Shown piece by piece: positions 22,812-49,700 of a stretch of DNA of 64,000 nucleotides. How positions within the stretch are numbered: position 1 is the stretch's first letter; each line of letters starts with the position of its first letter. A model generated the notes under the pieces. The model searched no databases and was not told where the DNA came from. It was given only the letters and a program-made list of their open reading frames with translations. Both the position numbers and the translations under genes were made by a program. This DNA is from Sycon ciliatum (lineage: Eukaryota > Porifera > Calcarea > Leucosolenida > Sycettidae). The DNA lies in assembly GCF_964019385.1 (NCBI RefSeq), contig NC_088646.1, positions 16,120,823 through 16,184,822 on the forward strand, written 5' to 3'.

Positions 22812-25800
22812 ACGCCACAGCAGTGGATGCCGAGTTTGACGGCATGGTAGCTCAGCTCTGTCAGATGGGATTTGAAGCATCACAGGTCAGTGAGAAGATT
22901 GTGTTCTGCGTCTGGTGTTCTTTTTGCAGCTGATTGCAACTTTGCCTTTCCTTTGTAGCAATGTTTTGCCTTTGCTTGTCCGATAAAAGGGGAAGTTAAG
23001 GCAAAAATTAAAATTTCACCAGTTGTAGTCTTCGGGGTGCTGAGTCGAATGGTCTTGGTCCGAGAAAGCTGAGACGCTCCCTTCCTACTTGAATCCCAAT
23101 CGAACTCGCGCACTTCCACCGAAACTGGGTGACTGGGCCCTACTAGATGGGGATTTGTATGCAAAATGTCACTAAAAGCGCCATTTCGTTCTTATAAAAG
23201 CACGGATGACCGCGATTGGCCCATATGTTGTAGTCTTTTGGACGCTGAGTCGACTGGTTTTGGTCCGAAAAGGCTGCGATGCAGCGTTCCTCCTTTATTC
23301 CCAATCGAACATGGTTGAAGAAACGGTCACGTGCTCCTGCGTACACCAGTCAGCTGGTCACCGTGCCTGCAGGGTACAACTTACTAGCCTGTTTGACCTT
23401 TTTTGGGTGCAGTCCTGTCACTCGAGTTGAACCCGAGTTGAACCTTGGTGTGAAAGTTGTCACCTGCTGGCGTGGTGACCAGGTGATTTGGGCACCCAGG
23501 ACCACGTGACCGCTTCTTCAACCATGTTCGATTGGGAATAAAGGAGGAACGCTGCATCGCAGCCTTTTCGGACCAAAACCAGTCGACTCAGCGTCCCAAA
23601 GACTACAACATATGGGCCAATCGCGGTCATCCGTGCTTTTATAAGAACGAAATGGCGCTTTTAGTGACATTTTGCATACAAATCCCCATCTAGTAGGGCG
23701 CAGTCACCCAGTTTCGGTGGAAGTGCGCGAGTTCGATTGGGATTCAAGTAGGAAGGGAGCGTCTCAGCTTCCTCGGACCACGACCATTCGACTCAGCACC
23801 CCGAAGACTACAACTGATGAAATTTTAATTTTTGCCTTAACTTCCCCTTTAATGGATTGGTCCAATTGCTCTTGCACTACATGTAGTGTACACCGCTAGG
23901 TGCTCATCACTGATCTACTCTATGTGATTTGCTTGTATCTCTCTTTGGGTTCTGTGTATTTTTTGTTCCCTTTCTGTCACTCTCGTGTTAGGTTCGTCTT
24001 GCTCTCCGTGCCAGCTTCAACAATCCAGATCGTGCTGTAGAGTACCTGATGACGGTATGTCAAGCTTTTCCTTTGCTGTGTTCTCTTTTGCTGACGAGCA
24101 CTGGTATTGTTCTCAATGCTTTGTACATGCAGTTCCATTGGAAAGATAGTTGTGGAGACACAATCTATTTTCTAATATGGCGAAACCTGTCCTTGCGGAC
24201 ACCTGTAAAGTGAAGACAGCTCGTCGCAGTCCCATTTATTCCCGTAGCTATGCAGAAGACGTTACTTCAGTAACGTCTGGCGCTAGCCAGGGTCCACACA
24301 GCTTTAATTTGGTGTTTGTTTGTTTGTTTGTTTGTGTCACGCCTGGCGCTATCCCGTATCTGTACCGTACTGTATCGTACCAGCAAAGACAGCTGGCTAC
24401 TATATGTTTGTTTGTTTGTGCCATCGACATGCCTGGCGCTATCCCCTACCTGTCCCGTACCATCAAGAGTACGGTACCATCAAGAGAATGAGTATATATG
24501 CGAAGTGTATCGGGGGAATGCATTCAGTGCAGTAACATTTTGTGTGGATTTGTGTGCGAGGCCGAGAACCCACTAGCAGGCTGGCTGGTCCGCCTGTCGA
24601 CCAGCCCGGGGATCGCATGTAGGCTGATAGCATAATAATTATAACGTATCAGATTGAGTAATTATAACGTATATACAGTCATGTAGATCTATAGCAGGGA
24701 GTCATATTATGTAAACGACTCCCAGCTGTATGGGGAGATTTTCTGAAAAAAATACGAAGTAGGGAGACGAGTGAATGCAATCAGAAAATCTCCCCATACA
24801 GCAGGGAGTCATATTATGTAAACGACTCCCTGCTGTATGGGGAGCTTTTCTGAAAAAAATACGAAGTAGGGAGACGAGTAAATGCAATAGGAATGGATGT
24901 TAGTTGCCGTCAGTATAATAATAAGAAGAAGAAGAACGCCCGTGATCGGCAGAGTCAGCGCCGGTCCCAAGAAACGTCAGGACAGACATCCCGTCGACTC
25001 CAGAACGCCCGTGATCGGCAGAGTCAGCGCCGGTCCCATAGCTATGCAGAAGGCGTTACTTGTACTTCAGTATATCATTGAAACGTTTTTGCAATACAAT
25101 GATGTAGCTAATCAAAGGAAAAAGCATTTCCATCAGATCTAACAACATGCACGATGAGCTAGGCAACAAAGCATAGCGCAGGGCCCTGAGCTTCCAAGCT
25201 CTCTCGTTTTGTGTACATTTTAGTTTGGGCTGGCACTTGAAAATTGTGGTCACCTGTGAAATACAAAATGCGGACACTATTGCGTCCCCGCGGTACTGTG
25301 CTGCACTGATCTGAGCCTGACAAAATCCAGACACACTGTACCGTGTGTACGGGATTGCTTGCGGTGACTTGCCAGCCCAGCTAGCCCGGTACATATTAGT
25401 ACACAATTTCACAATGGCGGGAAACTTTGTTTTGTCATAGCTCGAGAGTTTAACCCTTTGGCTCCCCACTATACAAATTTCGACGGTATTCCGTCGATGA
25501 CTTCAAACAGCCATAACTCATTCAAATATTGCACTATCGTGAAAATCGAAGTATGTAGGGTGTAGCTGAAGTCCTCAGCTTTCCGTTGGTGCAATCGTTT
25601 TCACGATAGCTCCAACGGTTGTTGAGATATCGCGCTCGAAAGTTGGAGGACGGCACTTTTCTCGTTCCGAGCACATTTTTGAGCATGAACCGGGGAATTC
25701 CCCTTGTTCTCAAGTACCTGTGATGAATTTTTTTGCGTAAATCATGGTGCAGGCTACCTGCTACGGCAGTACAAAAAAAATCAGAGCTGGGCGAGCAAGG

Positions 25801-36186: not shown

Positions 36187-37668
36187 CATAGTTCAAGTAC
36201 GTGTACAATGTAGATTCTACATGAATAGAAATGAATCATCGGATTCAGTGTCATCGACTCATCGATCATCGGCGGAAGTCATTCCACCGTGTGTGCACGT
36301 GCACGTACGTGCGAGTACACACGGTTTCCGTATCGCAGAATCGGGATCTCCGAACATACCAATCGTATGTAACCGTGGCGTCATACGGTAGAATGATAAA
36401 GAAGTCAACTCGCTGCTGACGCTGTCAACTACCGGTATGCATTATGGTCAACTGTTGTCAGTCTCTCCGAATGTCTGAGCTCAGCGAGCTGCAAAACTCA
36501 CTGACTGTACTGTCTGTCAGTCTCACTCTCACTGAGTCTCAGCATTTAAAGGGGAAGTTAAGGCAAAAATTAAAATTTCACCAGTTGTAGTCTTCGGGGT
36601 GCTGAGTCGAATGGTCGTGGTCCGAGGAAGCTGAGACGCTCCCTTCCTACTTGAATCCCAATCGAACTCGCGCACTTCCACCGAAACTGGGTGACTGCGC
36701 CCTACTAGATGGGGATTTGTATGCAAAATGTCACTAAAAGCGCCATTTCGTTCTTATAAAAGCACGGATGACCGCGATTGGCCCATATGTTGTAGTCTTT
36801 TGGACGCTGAGTCGACTGGTTTTGGTCCGAAAAGGCTGCGATGCGGCGTTCCTCCTTTATTCCCAATCGAACATGGTTGAAGAAGCGGTCACGTGCTCCT
36901 GCGTACACCAGTCAGCTGGTCACCGTGCCTGCAGGGTACAACTTACTAGCCTGTTTGACCTTTTTTGGGTGCAGTCCTGTCACTCGAGTTGAACTCGAGT
37001 TGAACCTTGGTGTGAAAGTTGTCACCTGCTGGCGTGGTGACCAGGTGATTTGGGCACCCAGGACCACGTGACTGCTCCTTCAACCATGTTCGATTGGGAA
37101 TAAAGGAGGAACGCTGCATCGCAGCCTTTTCGGACCAAAACCAGTCGACTCAGCGTCCAAAAGACTACAACATATGGGCCAATCGCGGTCATCCGTGCTT
37201 TTATAAGAACGAAATGGCGCTTTTAGTGACATTTTGCATACAAATCCCCATCTAGTAGGGCGCAGTCACCCAGTTTCGGTGGAAGTGCGCGAGTTCGATT
37301 GGGATTCAAGTAGGAAGGGAGCGTCTCAGCTTCCTCGGACCAAGACCATTCGACTCAGCACCCCGAAGACTACAACTGGTGAAATTTTAATTTTTGCCTT
37401 AAAGGGGAAGTTCACCCTAAAATCAAAATCAGATATGTTATTGGGAAAAATCAGCTGAGTCGATTGGTGTATGTCTCGTCTTCATCCGGTGACTGTAACC
37501 GGAGATATACGCAACTGAAATATCACTTTGATCCCCGGTTTTTGGCGCCGCCATGGCGTCACGGAGCTGTGACGTCAAAGAGATAGAGGAGCTCCTGGAG
37601 CTCGGAAGTTTTACCTGGAGTTGGACGGAGAAGAAAGTGAAGTCGTGAATGTCCAAGGCGGAAACAGT

Positions 37669-38961
37669 ATGAGCGGAGACGATTCAGACGGTAGGTCTAG
37701 CTCCTTGTCAGGAGATGACAGCGACTCCGAAGAGAGCGAGTTGGACGCCAGTGATGTCCTCGCATACGCGAAGGAACCAGAGTATACCGAGGATGAGATC
37801 ATGCAGATGGCGAGTGCGGAGCAAGTTGGTGTAAATGCTGACGAAGCTGCAGCAGCTGCTGCCGACACTGACCCTGCAGCTTGCTTAGAGGACTGCTGGC
37901 CACCTGCCGATCGCGTTGGCAATACGTCGTGGTGTGAATGTGGCAAATGCGTCGTTCAGTTATTGCGGAACGACTGCATTTGCTGCAAAGATGTTCCGGA
38001 ATCGGCAGCGATTGGTGAGTCTGGCTGCATTTCTTGCACCTCACAGTTCGAGGAAGGCTGCAGCAACCAGCACGCGCTCTACATTGCACTGCGCGGCTAT
38101 TTGGACACCATCCATCAGCCGGCCGGATCGAAGCCATCTGAATTTGAAAACCGGTACGTGCTAATACTGTAGTGTAATACTGTCGTTGATGTTGCATTGG
38201 AGAAATGTATTTCCTCATCAAAATAAATAGTGTTCCCTGGTGCAAAGATATAGCCAGGATATTGGCTTGTATACTTCGTCAAAAATAATTGTGTTGTAGT
38301 GTGCTGCTGTTACAATGAAATGTACGTCGACATGGGAGACTAACAGCAGGAAAATCTACTCTCCTGTTCCCCACTGCAGCTCGTACCGTTATGCAGCATA
38401 CCGACAATACATATGGCTGGTATTCGGAAAACTTGGCCGAGGAGTCCGGTACCGAATACCATCATGTGCAGTTTCAGCTATAAGGCGGAAGTACCCTAAT
38501 GCTGAAGGTGAATTCTCTTCGTACACGTCATTGGTTATTGTGTGCAAATAACTTCAAATCTAGCCGGAAATGGCGCACATCTTTTCTAAGAATTTGTACA
38601 TTATCTTGTCATAATAAGAAGACTAAACTAAATAACACTTTAGCACACATGTACACAGAGAAGCACTATAACAAGTAACGGTCAACAACAACTGCAAAAG
38701 ACAAAATTTCCTTCAAATCCTGAACTTCGTACATCCAGTCATGTAATGTTCTGATGCAGCGCGAATTGTTATTGAATTATATACAGATGTAATAAAAAAA
38801 GTATGGTGAAAAAAGGAGGACAAAATGTTACGAGTTATGACTAAAAATTACATTGGCGAAAGCTCATTGCTACAAATCTCTGTGGATTTATATTTTCAGG
38901 TGAACCATACCATGGATTTGCAGAAGCAACAGATGATGACCAGCCACACTGGCCTGGCTAA
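37669..38961 (+). CDS. Transposon-encoded protein with P2X7 ballast-like cysteine domain, 224 aa
   Basis: Exons 37669-38153, 38380-38507 and 38900-38961 join in phase to a TAA. Residues 1-80 are acidic and Ser-rich. A cysteine-rich domain follows: SWCECGKC (87-94), CICCKD (103-108), GCISC (119-123) and a further Cys near 131. Exon 2 then gives YRYAAYRQYIWLVFGKLG and IPSCAVSAIRRKYP. This order of W-C-x-C-x2-C, C-x-C-C and AYRQ...LG...IPSC matches the zinc- and nucleotide-binding cytoplasmic ballast domain of P2X7 and related stand-alone invertebrate proteins. No membrane segment is present. Its role in the transposon is unknown; DNA or partner binding is a guess. The ATG at 37669 is the first in frame before the acidic region. 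Its stop lies 99 bases from the stop of the opposing transposase gene. Confidence 0.8.
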
Positions 38962-39060
38962 GGGAAGCAGCAGAGGAGAGACAAGAACGTACCAAAATCT
39001 TATTCCTACCGTACTTTATTATATACACATAGCCTATCTGTCACATAATGATCAGTTCGG

Positions 39061-39552
39061 TCAAACATCATCTTTCTTGTCGCTTAGCTTTGCCATTCTC
39101 GATTGCAACTTGGCTACCACATCTGCCTTCTTCTTTGGCGTCTGGCGCGAAATGCTGACACTCTTGTACATGGGTATAGACGGAAACTCTTTTCCGAATG
39201 CCGCCTGCTGCACGTTGTTCATCAGCTGGCCGACATAGTCGTAGGACTTCTCCACATACACCTTCTTGGCTACGTAGTCACCCTTGTGACGCGAAAATTG
39301 ACTTTTGTAGCGGAGCTCTCCGCTGGTTGTCTTGGCTTGATGCCGGCCAACATTGAAATTATGGTCCAGGGCAGCTAACTGTGTCCGAGCTTCCATACCC
39401 GCCCGGCTGAAGTGGATGCGCTTGGGGACATACTTCGTCATGACACTGTGGAACACCTGCATAATGGACACACGGCAAAGCAATCATAAACTGTTACTAT
39501 TGTGTAGCCAGCCAAGTGCATGCACGTTGTGTGTGTGTGTGTGTGTGTGTGC

Positions 39553-39583
<31 letters not shown>

Positions 39584-41128
39584 CGCGTGCACACGTGCGT
39601 GTGTGTGTGTGTGGGTGTGTGTGTACATTACCTCTAAGTTTCCCGTGTGCTGAAATCCAGTCAGCTGTGGCAAGTCATTCAGGAGTCTTGTGTCAAACAC
39701 CACGGAATGGAGTACCTTGTACGGTGCTGAGTCTACAAGTAATAATTAGGACAGCAAAGACAGAACGAAAAAAAAAGAAAAAAGAACAAAGTTCACTACC
39801 TTGTCGCAAGCGCGAGGTAATTACGGAAATAAGGCTTTATCGTTGATGCGATGGGCAAACATCCAAGTTATTTTCCTAGCCAAAAACGAAGAAAATACGT
39901 ACCGGGTTTAAGCCACTTTTTGCGCTTCTGGTCCTCTTCAGTCAGTGGTTTGTGCGAGCACTTCAGAAACAATTCGGCAGAAGTCCAGGCATGCTGATTG
40001 CAGATGTGGTATAGAATCGATGTCCACATCTCTCTCAGAAGCTGTGGGTTGCGCTGGCATGATCTGCTGCAATACCACAGGTGATTGATGATGGCAGGTA
40101 TCCACTCTAGTAAGGGTTGCTGATCTTTCTTTTTGGAGCCTGCTCGAAGCTTGGATGCAACATTTTTTGCAAAATGCCAAACATCGAACTGGTGGTCTAT
40201 GTCCTTCTTTGCCTTCATCAATTTCTTGATGGACTGGCTCCGATCTGTGACAATCGTGGCCACCTCAAGCTTCTCCTCCAAGCAGCGGGACAACACGTTC
40301 TCAAATGCAAACTTCTCCATAGCTTGGCTGCTTGTCGTTTCCGTGCACTCTGTTACCTACAGAATTCAAGTCAGAGTCACACAGAACAATGTAGAGTGTC
40401 ATAAAAATATCAAGCCAGTCTCAGAGGTGCTACCCAACCAATAGTAACAATAGCCGCTGAGTACGTCAATAACACACTTTTCAGCAGTAGTAGAAGTAGC
40501 CGTATGTGTAGCGGTAGCAGCAATACCATGACATGTTGTCTGAGCATTTACCTGGAAATCAACGATCAAGTCCGTTTGGACTTCCATCAGTGTATACGTT
40601 CCGTACTTGGCGCTATACCCTGGGCTGTCACACCTACCATCACCGGCCAATTCAAGTTTCTTCCCTGTTAAGAAGCGCGACAAAGAAGCACAAGCACCAA
40701 TCAGTACAAGCAATGAAGAACTACCGCATGCAACAAACCAAGCATGTAAACCACCAAATGCCTTTGGGTTCTCCTTGATATTACATACCTGCAAAGAAAT
40801 TCTTGACGCGTGTCCTTTCAGCAAACCAAGCTGCCTGGATGATTGGAAGTACAAACTGTTCTTGGATGGAGTACATAGTTGTTTTGTGGATGACAGAAAG
40901 TTTGAGAAACTCAGCAATGCGAGAGAAAACGTTGAATGTGGATCCAGAGAAGACAATAGCTGCAACAAGAAGGATGGAGCCTGCAGCAGTAGAACAGGGG
41001 AGAGAAAATTCACAAGAACATGCAGGCAAAGATTTAGTGAAATTATCCATTGCTTGATTTCCGCAAACCATGTACATGCAGGTAAGGATGATGCATTCCC
41101 CCACCTTCGAAGTAACAGGAACGTCACA

Positions 41129-41197
<69 letters not shown>

Positions 41198-42537
41198 GGG
41201 AGGTACTTACAGAGTGACTGGTTGCTGTTGGCCGTTGTTCGATGTGATCTCCATGTAACGTCACAACCTCTCGCACATGTTAATTTCACAACCAGCATGC
41301 CGCCAATTAGCTGATCATTTCGGTCAATGACAACAGCTCCACATGTTGGACAGCGCCTTAGCAACTCGTCCAGCGAAGACTCGTGCACCATGTGAATGCT
41401 GTCTTTCTCCTGCTGCGGACTCTGGAGCTGTTCTGATGCCTCACTGCACGAACTTGGGCAGTATTCAGCCTCCGACTCTGACATAGGATCAACGCCCACA
41501 CTCACAGCTGACTCCGCACTCGAACACGTTAAAGACACAGCGGGCCTGGTTGGTGTCAACAGGTGGGACGCCATATGCGTTCTTAAAAGGGGCTTTCCCC
41601 GCCGTGGTGTTTGAGTTGATTTCTCTTGCATGTCGATGGAGGCTTGTGTGCCGCATTCTGCCATGGACATGCAGCTACTGACAGTTTGCGTTCCAGATTC
41701 AGCCGTTAACGTCTCCAGTAAAGACGACTGAAGCGTTTGCGTGCTTGAGTCCACCATCAGTACGACTGGGGTCTGTGTGCACGCATCAGCAGATGTCATG
41801 CCATCGTCTGGACTCACTGGGCCTGCAACTGGAGACCGAAATGCTGCGGCGTATGGCTCAGCATAGGCTTGAGCTAGGATCTACTCGCAGAATACACACA
41901 GACAACAGTGACAATGCAATACAAGACCCTCTTGCCAAGCAGAGTACAGAGAGTGACCACTGTATGCCTTTTCACGACATGTAAATAATGGAAATAATTT
42001 CAAATAATTATATTGTGCGATCTTCTGCCTTCAATACCTGGCAATCAACACACTGCAAACAAAATACCGGCACATGTAAATAATTTCCTCTCTAAGTACG
42101 ATGTACTCAACGCAGTGGGTGAAACTGCGCTCTCCAACTCGCGATGTACAAACAAAATTTCAACGCGCTCTCAATGCACGAAATCACCAGAACCATTCAC
42201 TCACCTCTTCTCTCTCCTTCCTCTCCTGATACTGCGATATCCTTCGCTTCGCTGGGGGAGGCCTGCCCGGGAAAATCGATGGCACAGCGTCTGCTTTTAG
42301 CTTTCGGCGGCACGTTCCACCCAAAAGCTCTTCCTGCAAGTTCCTCTGGAAGGCATCCTCTTCAAAATGTGCCGAACAAATCACAGAACTCTCCTCAAAC
42401 TTAGGTGGCAAATTCTCGCGGTGAATCGCTGCAACCCATTCCGCTCGGAGAGCTTTATCCCGCGGAATACGATGCACCGTAGTCCCAGGGGGCTTGCCAG
42501 ACTGGTTAGAGCAGCCGAAAGCACAGCAAAACGGCAT
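39061..42537 (-). CDS. Kolobok-type THAP-domain transposase, 752 aa
   Basis: Exons, in order: 42537-42205, 41880-41211, 40980-40789, 40664-40552, 40356-39903, 39732-39632, 39456-39061; 2259 bases, phases all agree, no internal stop. Residues 1-90 form a THAP zinc finger (CCAFGC..., ICSAHF, AVPSIF box). A Ser/Thr-rich linker with repeated T-Q-T motifs leads to a second probable zinc site (RRCPTCGAVV and LTCARGCDVTW). The catalytic region starts with AGDGRCDSPG (Asp 407/411), then TIVTDRSQS (Asp 474), FDVWHFAKNV, WIPAIINHLW, CSHKPLT and KWLKPG; the last exon has YVPKRIHFSRAGMEAR and LAALDHNFN. The assignment of the third acidic residue is not certain. The product should bind the element's ends and catalyse cut-and-paste at TTAA. 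Confidence 0.82.
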
Positions 42538-43450
42538 CCTGGCTGAAACTGTTCATATCGCAAGAAAGAAACTCCACAAACGCCACTCTTTCTTGCTCAC
42601 AAAAAGCAAGCAGGTTCGAGCCTCTATCTCTTTGACGTCACAGGGTGTGGAGGGGGTGTGCGCCGGCCGCATGACGTCATTTTGGATGACGTCATGGGAA
42701 ATTTCAAATTCAAATATCTCCAGAACGGCGTATCGCACGGCGATGGGACCTTCACCACCGAACTCAGCGCCTCGAAATCTACAAACTGTGAAATTTTGAT
42801 TTTAGGGTGAACTTCCCCTTTAACTTCCCCTTTAATCCCCTCAAGTCAAGACAAGTGACAGTCGGACTGTGAGTGTGAGTCAGACCCAGAGCGTTCGCAA
42901 AAACTGTAGATAAAGACAAGTGGTAGGTAGACCTTCTTTCCTGGGTTGGCTGCATCATGACATGAGTAGATCTACGAACTCCGGCAAGTGGAGCTGATCA
43001 GCCGATCCGATCCGAGGCGATCGCGAGGAAGACCTACGCCAGGCTACGGACTCCCGGCGTACCGACCGTGCATCCCGCATAGCAACACAAACATCATTCG
43101 CTCGGTTACTAGTCTTGTAGCTGGTCAGCTTGAGACGTGGAGTCCGCGAGCAGAGGAGGGAGTGAGAGACGCTGGTTGTTTGTGTGTGAGCAAAAACAAC
43201 GATACAAATTAATACGAGTTTGGTGGAGGACACGGAACGTAGTGTACTGCTACGCTGCTTTGTGTACCAGTTGGGGAAGCTGAGGTATTAGATAAACCTT
43301 GTTTTGTTGAAAACAAGCTGAGTTCCAACGGTACGATCCTGCTGTTAGCGTAGGCGATTCCAGTCAGTGTGACTCTACGACGAGCAAGCAGCAGGGGCTG
43401 GAGGTACTAGGTAGTAGCCCGTCGATGCGCGCAAACCAGTCGAAAAGAAG

Positions 43451-46718: not shown

Positions 46719-49700
46719 TTAATCACAAGAGCCGTCTTTCCACCCATGTTTCCATCTTTCGTTGACAAGCGAGCAGTCGTATGCTTTTTTCCCCAGCCTA
46801 ACGTTGACTTCATTGTGGGCACTGCACATCCATTGGGATAGCTGATGTTGGCTTCTGACATCAGGGGGATTGTCCTTCATCCTGGATGCCGGATAAGAAA
46901 GATGGAAAAAAGTGGGGTTATAAATTCAGGAGATGTTCTGTCCATCGCCATTACACGAAACCACTTGAAAGAACTCAGTCTCGGTTATTCTTTTAAAATC
47001 TTGTTATGGAATGTGCAGTGTATGGCCAGGGACAATTTTCAGTAGTTGATATACAAATCAAGGGCTTGTGGTGTTGGCAAGCAGAAGCGTCAGCATGGCA
47101 CATACGTGTTCATCAGCTACGCTGATTATTATTGACAACATAGGGAAAGGATGCATGCCACAAGCACGCACGTCTTTCCCGACCTCCATCAGTCATCTGA
47201 ACAATATTGGGCAATTGAGCTCATTTAAAAAAGCTCAATACAGTGTATAGGCAAATGCATTACCTCCACACATGCATGTGCACTCTAGCACACCAATGTT
47301 CATGGAGTGAAGATGATAAAATACAATGCTTTTTGCACGTACAATAACTAGTTCCTGTTTCCTGTCCGCAGGACGTGAAGTAGGACAGTAGAGTACCGGT
47401 AGTTACATTGGATACTAGTACATGTATTACCAAGAGTACATACCCCCCACCCCCCCCCCCCCCCCCCCCCCCCCAGAGCGTGCAACGCCTGATACAGCTC
47501 TGCATAGGGTCTTGGTCGAGCGTAATCGGATCTTCTGATGTCACGCGTACACTCCACACCAGCGCAAGGCCGGTCTCGAGGCAGGGCACCGTTGTTTTTG
47601 ATCCGAGAGTACCCGCAATTCCCCGGGTTCCCCTCAGATGTGTACGGTATTATGACGCAAAGATCCGATTACGCTCGACCAAGACCCTGTGCAGAGCTGG
47701 ATCAGGCGTTGCACACTCTAGGGGGGGGGGTTATGAACTCTTGGTATTAGGTTAGTATTATAATGTGAGTAATAACATTACTCACCATACTTGCAGGTGC
47801 TCAGCGCAATCGTCGCAAGGATAAAACCGAGAAAAGAGCCTCATGAACTGCTTCGCTTCTTTCTGTTTCTGCTCACTGGGCTTGTCTGGATAGTATGCAG
47901 CCATTGTGTGAAGAAAGGACCAGGTTGCCCTTCCTAAAGACACCCGATCCTCAGGGCATGGCTTCTCCTCAGCTGGTGCCTGTGCGGCTGGTGCAACCTT
48001 GGGCACAGTCTGCAGAAAGGAGAGAAGAGTAGTACATGATTTATACAGTGCAAGCAAAGATCCATATTTTATATAATTCAAATTTTGATTGTCCGGATAA
48101 AGCTGGGCAGAGGTCACAGACGCATTTGGAGATGAAATTATCTAGGAAACTCCATACGGGCAAAGTGTACACATTCAACATGCGGCATTCACCCCATCTG
48201 CATTTACAATGCTGCTCAATGATACCTGAGCATGGTGAAGTAGCTAGCACTGGGTACTGTGCAGACCTCTAGACCTGTAAACACTGCTGGCTTGTGCAGG
48301 GCGATGACTTAAAAAAAATGTGCATGGATTTTACTGAGCACGAACAGTGCATTTCACATACTCGTACCGGTATACGGCGATCAATGTACGAGATGACTGG
48401 ACAGTGGGTTGCAAGTCTAAGCCCAAAGTATAGCATAGATGATGAATAGCAATGTAGTACATGTAGTATGCGACCAATCATATGATAGTATATTAGCAAG
48501 AGTCCACAAACCAGAGTATGGAAGTGAGTGTGATCTCTTTTCTATGGGCCAGCGGCGCGCTGCCTTCATTACATCATTCAGCTGCAGTCTGCATACTGCG
48601 GAATATCAAACGCCACACTTTCCCTCTGGTTCGAAATGAACTTTCATACGGAACTGGGGTTCACACGCCAAAATTTAGAGATCGTGTAGGTACTGGAACG
48701 AATCGAGTAAAAATGGATGTGCTCGTACGAGAAATGGTGGGTTTGAGTGCATGCTTTCAGAGCGTGATGGAGGCAAGTTACGCAATGAAGGCAGCGCGCC
48801 ACGCACGGTCCCACAATCACAGTTGCATACTCTTGTTTATGCACTCTTGATATTAGGGGAATCAAAATTTGGCTCCACGGGTAGTAGGTGGAGAGTTATG
48901 ACTCCCCAGCTGTGATTGCCCACCACACGCACCACGGCAGAGGCAGGCACTGTCGGTTGGGATACAAAACAAAAATGCAGAAAACACAAACAAGCTGCGC
49001 TGAGCGGCTACCAAGTAACACCCTGAACCTGGAAAGCGAAAGGACTTAATGCACAGACTCAACAATGTGTACATGCATGCAAATGCATTGCACAGTGAAC
49101 TCTTCGCGGTCACATAAGTTACTCTTTGGCTAAGGATACATGCGACCAACAGTCCATTCAGGGGGTTGTGGACTCTTCATGGAATGCTGTGTCACTACAA
49201 CCGAGTCACAGGCACTGCAGGTTGTTGCCTGCACGGTGCACTACACAGGCACGGTGACCAGGTGACTGGTGTACGCATCTGCCATCAGTACGGGATGGCG
49301 TACGGGACTGCGTCCGATTGGGAAAGGGGCCGAGCGCTGTCTTGAAGAATGGTCAAACCAAGAGTCCAAGACCATTTGACTCAGCGTCTAGATGACTACA
49401 GGTTCTAGGGGTTTCACGTTCATCTTCTATAAGAACGAAGTGGCGCTTTCAGGGACAATTTTCGACACAAAACTCTATCCAATGGGGTACACTCACTCGG
49501 TTTCGGGGAAAGGCGCAAGTTGGATGGGGAATATAAGACAAAGGGAGCGTCTCAGCTTCCTCAGGCCAAGATCATTCAACTCAGCATCCCAAAGACCAAA
49601 AGTAATGACATTTTTTTAATTATAAACTAGGAGAGCATGTACATGTAACTGCATAATTCCAACATGGTGTATACAACCCCAACTGTTTTGATATTGAGGC

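Follow-up and report, generated by a model that had tools for sequence, protein, structure and literature searches.

In a 64,000-nucleotide stretch of the 538-Mb genome of the calcareous sponge Sycon ciliatum (NC_088646.1:16,120,823-16,184,822, on contig C4, hereafter the window), we found at positions 37403-42819 (TTAA duplications left out) a cut-and-paste Kolobok transposon which very probably belongs to the KolX-bearing (Kol0) kind, with KolX as a resident gene and, most likely, an accessory factor of the transposase. Kol0 elements were previously reported to code for this second protein, which resembles human P2X7 over residues 476-595 and has the ballast fold together with seven cysteines; P2X7 was explained as a P2X4-like gene that fused with KolX, and Nanor as probably a domesticated KolX (Kojima & Bao 2022, PMC9587614). 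The ballast domain is widespread in animals (Rump et al. 2020, PMC7016195), and the main text of the latter paper contains no word starting with "transpos". The link between Kolobok KolX and the P2X7 ballast domain, which the first-pass annotation of the window had also drawn, is correct but was already published in 2022, and the Sycon families, the convergent gene layout and the parallel divergence of the two proteins are modest additions. In the literature searched (Repbase was outside the search), KolX appeared in a single paper, and Sycon ciliatum and Kolobok appeared together in none; Sycon has no occurrence in the main text of PMC9587614, where sponge families are unnamed, whereas the convergent layout, the introns and an empty site are documented here.

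The element is intact-looking, judging from its open frames and splice signals. KolX is a plus-strand gene of 3 exons (224 aa) and the transposase a minus-strand gene of 7 exons (42537-42205 to 39456-39061; 752 aa); all 8 introns of the two genes are GT-AG, and 99 bp lie between the stop codons. The first-pass claims of two open, convergent genes spliced in phase, with these protein lengths and this spacing, were exactly reproduced. The features are the following:

37399-37402, no strand: left TTAA target-site duplication, seen against the empty site
37403-37429, plus strand: left terminal inverted repeat, 27 bp, starts AG (5'-RR), 100% complementary to 42793-42819
37567-37589, plus strand: left subterminal inverted repeat, 23 bp, perfect
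37669-38153, plus strand: KolX exon 1, acidic N-terminus, W-C-x-C-x2-C and C-x-C-C
38380-38507, plus strand: KolX exon 2, YRYAAYRQ and IPSC, junction backed by protein P0001
38900-38961, plus strand: KolX exon 3 with stop (EPYHGF...HWPG), junction backed by P0001
39061-39456, minus strand: transposase exon 7 with stop
39632-39732, minus strand: transposase exon 6, presumed third catalytic residue E621
39903-40356, minus strand: transposase exon 5, D474 and D494-x2-H497
40552-40664, minus strand: transposase exon 4, GDGRCDSPG (presumed first catalytic D)
40789-40980, minus strand: transposase exon 3
41211-41880, minus strand: transposase exon 2
42205-42537, minus strand: transposase exon 1, THAP domain (residues 4-89)
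42621-42643, minus strand: right subterminal inverted repeat, 23 bp
42793-42819, minus strand: right terminal inverted repeat, ending CT (YY-3')
42820-42823, no strand: right TTAA target-site duplication, seen against the empty site
36546-37402, no strand: left part of a palindromic target repeat, with its right remainder at 42824-42835 and an uninterrupted copy at 22986-23853

As in the Kolobok superfamily, the element has a 4-bp TTAA target-site duplication and termini of the form 5'-RR ... YY-3' (AG ... CT). Duplications and termini together make a perfect inverted repeat of 31 nt (TTAA + 27 bp) at 37399-37429 / 42793-42823, with the 23-bp subterminal repeats as a second perfect inverted pair; the inverted ends of about 29 bp given in the first-pass annotation are thus present, but their length should read 27 bp, or 31 with the TTAA. 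When the two flanks were joined in a script, the product agreed at 98.7% with the window's uninterrupted copy across 868 bases. This copy is continuous through the TTAA of the insertion junction and therefore represents the empty site, from which it follows that the TTAA duplication is a true insertion product; the exact duplications noted earlier are borne out by it and by the 31-nt repeat. The target itself is a palindromic repeat of approximately 868 bp (91.7% match to its own reverse complement), the ends of which, AAAGGGGAAGTTAAGGC, resemble Kolobok ends; the insertion lies at a TTAA within one of these ends, and a weaker relative of the repeat is located at 49366-49614 of the window.

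The likeness of the plus-strand protein to the ballast domain is above chance, since the PF20478 profile scored 61.8 bits on the window KolX (E=1.1e-16) against a curated cut-off of 23.5. The expected profile match to the P2X7 cytoplasmic domain was hence recovered, a structure match is also present, and the length, acidity and motifs (W-C-x-C-x2-C, C-x-C-C, AYRQ, IPSC) described for this protein hold. The ballast fold is supported by the predicted structure of a sister KolX, and for the window protein by profile and sequence. PF20478 is the sole domain found in the 224-aa protein, with no P2X channel part. Seven predicted zinc cysteines (C89, C91, C94, C105, C106, C120, and C191) are invariant in 6/6 KolX compared, C105/C106 being paired with the C-C pair of P2X7 by motif and left unpaired by the phmmer alignment. 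Two of the five residues of the rat P2X7 GDP site are kept (R165 = R546, R197 = R578) and are invariant in the KolX compared, while H547, R574, and K583 are replaced by Y, V, and N in the window copy; similar differences at the GDP site were described in invertebrates (PMC7016195). The protein is acidic (D+E 40 vs. K+R 18; computed pI 4.3). Both exon junctions are spanned by the EukProt protein P0001 (90% identity over the matched part), which derives from another copy of the element and was assigned to its species by the match itself, its entry carrying just an identifier.

Pfam searches of the transposase recovered a THAP domain (residues 4-89, E=2.5e-19) and a Mutator-like transposase domain (439-558, E=1e-7), in agreement with the THAP/DDE type named in the first-pass annotation. 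Catalytic residues were assigned by motif: GDGRCDSPG at 406-414 (D407 or D411), D474, and E621, with D494xxH497 between the second D and E, i.e., the DDD/E plus C/DxxH arrangement of Kolobok. GDGRCDSPG, D474, and DxxH are kept in the 5/5 sister families read there (L064 without a reading), and the E621 equivalent in 6/6 once an alignment artefact is set aside. A putative zinc finger lies between DxxH and E (H528, C536, H553, and H558 in the window copy); its histidines are kept in 6/6 families (window and L059-L063) and C536 in 5/6.

The two genes largely travel together at the loci listed for this genome. Protein searches returned at least 153 exon-by-exon matches for KolX (best 150 of 677 candidates scored) and at least 74 for the transposase (best 60 of 1733 candidates scored), so that copy counts are lower bounds and a gene without a listed match may still exist. 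Pairing was counted with one row per transposase locus. Among the 24 listed loci with a transposase match beyond the THAP exon, a KolX match lies no farther than 10 kb away at 19, in convergent orientation each time; the other five have no KolX among the matches listed. One of these five, partly fetched, is a truncated relic, and the remaining four are at C1:24.2, 48.97, 51.3 and 63.9 Mb. At the 22 listed loci matching the THAP exon only, a convergent KolX match was found in 19 and none was listed in 2, while one locus, in a tandem copy pair, was paired with the KolX of the neighbouring copy. Outside the window family, KolX and transposase are convergent in 6/6 further-family loci (L059-L064, of which L064 is degenerate); five of these were chosen because both searches matched there, and L064 as a KolX-only match. 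None of the loci fetched proved to be a full-length copy without the plus-strand gene, a case that the first-pass annotation had named as a refutation. Pairwise identities were compared in six families, without L064: those of KolX range from 0.42 to 0.63 and those of the transposase from 0.40 to 0.62, and the two sets are correlated (r=0.87; as high in 4/720 permutations). Across families, KolX thus changes at about the same slow pace as the transposase core, which argues for long-term selection on KolX. An intron following residues NR recurs.

The 20 loci fetched from the KolX matches fall into several groups. L040 (C12) aligns collinearly along the element's full length (95.5%), with both genes present and both now broken. 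Ten internally deleted copies, each about 2.5-3.1 kb long, lie at nine loci (L049-L057); they retain parts of KolX and the THAP exon and apparently form one non-autonomous family; their deletion junctions are nearly shared (element 1052/2050 and about 2144/4366) and their KolX is disrupted by frame shifts or stops. L039, L041, and L042 match the element on the KolX side only. At L039 (C12, 154 kb), three KolX exon matches cover residues 21-224 without a stop, and the 7.5 kb fetched gave no transposase match; this may be a solo KolX or may be due to chance. At the distant KolX locus L058, a transposase match was likewise not found. Six loci (L043-L048) belong to one cluster on C3, where at least 11 truncated copies lie within 2.5 Mb (26.0-28.5 Mb). 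It looks like a local segmental duplication, given that 4/6 of the fetched copies have one inner junction in common, with position 1668 of the element joined to 4171, and that similarity extends into the flanks. The NCBI protein P0002 (LOC135809328) of Sycon ciliatum is 100% identical to its matches at L061 on C2; both it and P0006 (L060), Sycon proteins named uncharacterized or P2X purinoceptor 7-like, are KolX inside Kolobok elements.

The Sycon element shares with the Kol0 lineage (type Kolobok-1_XT) the TTAA duplications, the RR...YY ends, a DDE transposase with DxxH, and a ballast-like KolX with seven cysteines as a separate protein beside the transposase (PMC9587614). The P2X7 ballast domain and Nanor-like proteins (PF20478, PTHR36981; PMC7016195) have in common with KolX the profile, the seven cysteines, and R546 and R578; unlike P2X7, the Sycon KolX is unfused to a P2X channel. 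Free-standing P2X7-like proteins carry host-gene names in several animals, and Rump et al. regarded such proteins as products of host genes (PMC7016195), as would suit the chance capture of a host gene, carried as passenger cargo, by this single copy. Such a capture is nevertheless extremely improbable: KolX stands convergent to the transposase at most listed core loci and in all seven families read, window included, KolX is reported for Kol0 elsewhere (PMC9587614), and the recurring intron after NR and the parallel divergence of both proteins contradict it. That Kolobok acquired an ancient animal ballast gene, rather than animals their ballast from Kolobok, also appears unlikely. Ballast genes are reported to be linked to two markers in animals ranging from sponges to molluscs and sea urchin (PMC7016195), as would fit a host gene of long standing, and our tree of 24 sequences leaves P2X7 unplaced (support 61/24); on the other hand, P0002 and P0006 illustrate that some apparent host genes are transposon genes. 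Since P2X7 could not be placed in the tree, the direction of transfer follows published work, in which Kojima & Bao derive the P2X7 ballast domain from Kolobok (PMC9587614).

With KolX regarded as a resident accessory factor, its mode of action can be considered. The THAP-DDE transposase would bind the element ends, then cut them and join them into TTAA, and KolX would assist it, e.g., in a complex at the DNA ends; we put direct participation in transposition at about an even chance. Somewhat short of that, KolX may help the element outside the DNA reaction, in transcription, nuclear entry, protection from silencing or copy-number control. Two observations speak for such a role: the N-terminus is acidic and of low model confidence (block means 44-53 over residues 1-40 of P0006), and deleted copies without an intact KolX have spread, though helper copies could supply it. 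Nothing decisive contradicts a role outside the DNA reaction, although the invariance of the arginines matching R546 and R578 would need another reason. The P element and THAP9 resemble the Sycon element in combining a THAP domain with an RNase H-like transposase (PMC7776569), and the C/DxxH motif is common to P and Kolobok (PMC9587614). The P element transposase requires GTP held by an internal domain, in which it is described as unique, and makes 8-bp duplications (PMC7776569), whereas in the Sycon element the ballast fold is on a separate protein. Because the P2X7 ballast domain binds guanine nucleotides (PMC9859053) and the THAP-bearing P element needs GTP, KolX could by analogy be a guanine-nucleotide-binding partner acting in trans, an improbable reading, against which the retention of just 2/5 contact residues also weighs.

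These results offer independent confirmation, drawn from several families within a single genome of an animal that branched off early, that the ballast-like protein is a resident transposon protein, and confirm in Sycon that KolX diverges in step with its transposase. They also show that a protein entered in databases as P2X purinoceptor 7-like may in fact be encoded by a transposon. The functions of the P2X7 zinc and GTP/GDP sites were termed unknown (PMC9859053); if KolX did bring a guanine nucleotide to the transposase, the nucleotide site of P2X7 could be a relic of that role in transposition. The Sycon families sharpen the question of the task that this fold has in transposition, and perhaps also in P2X7.
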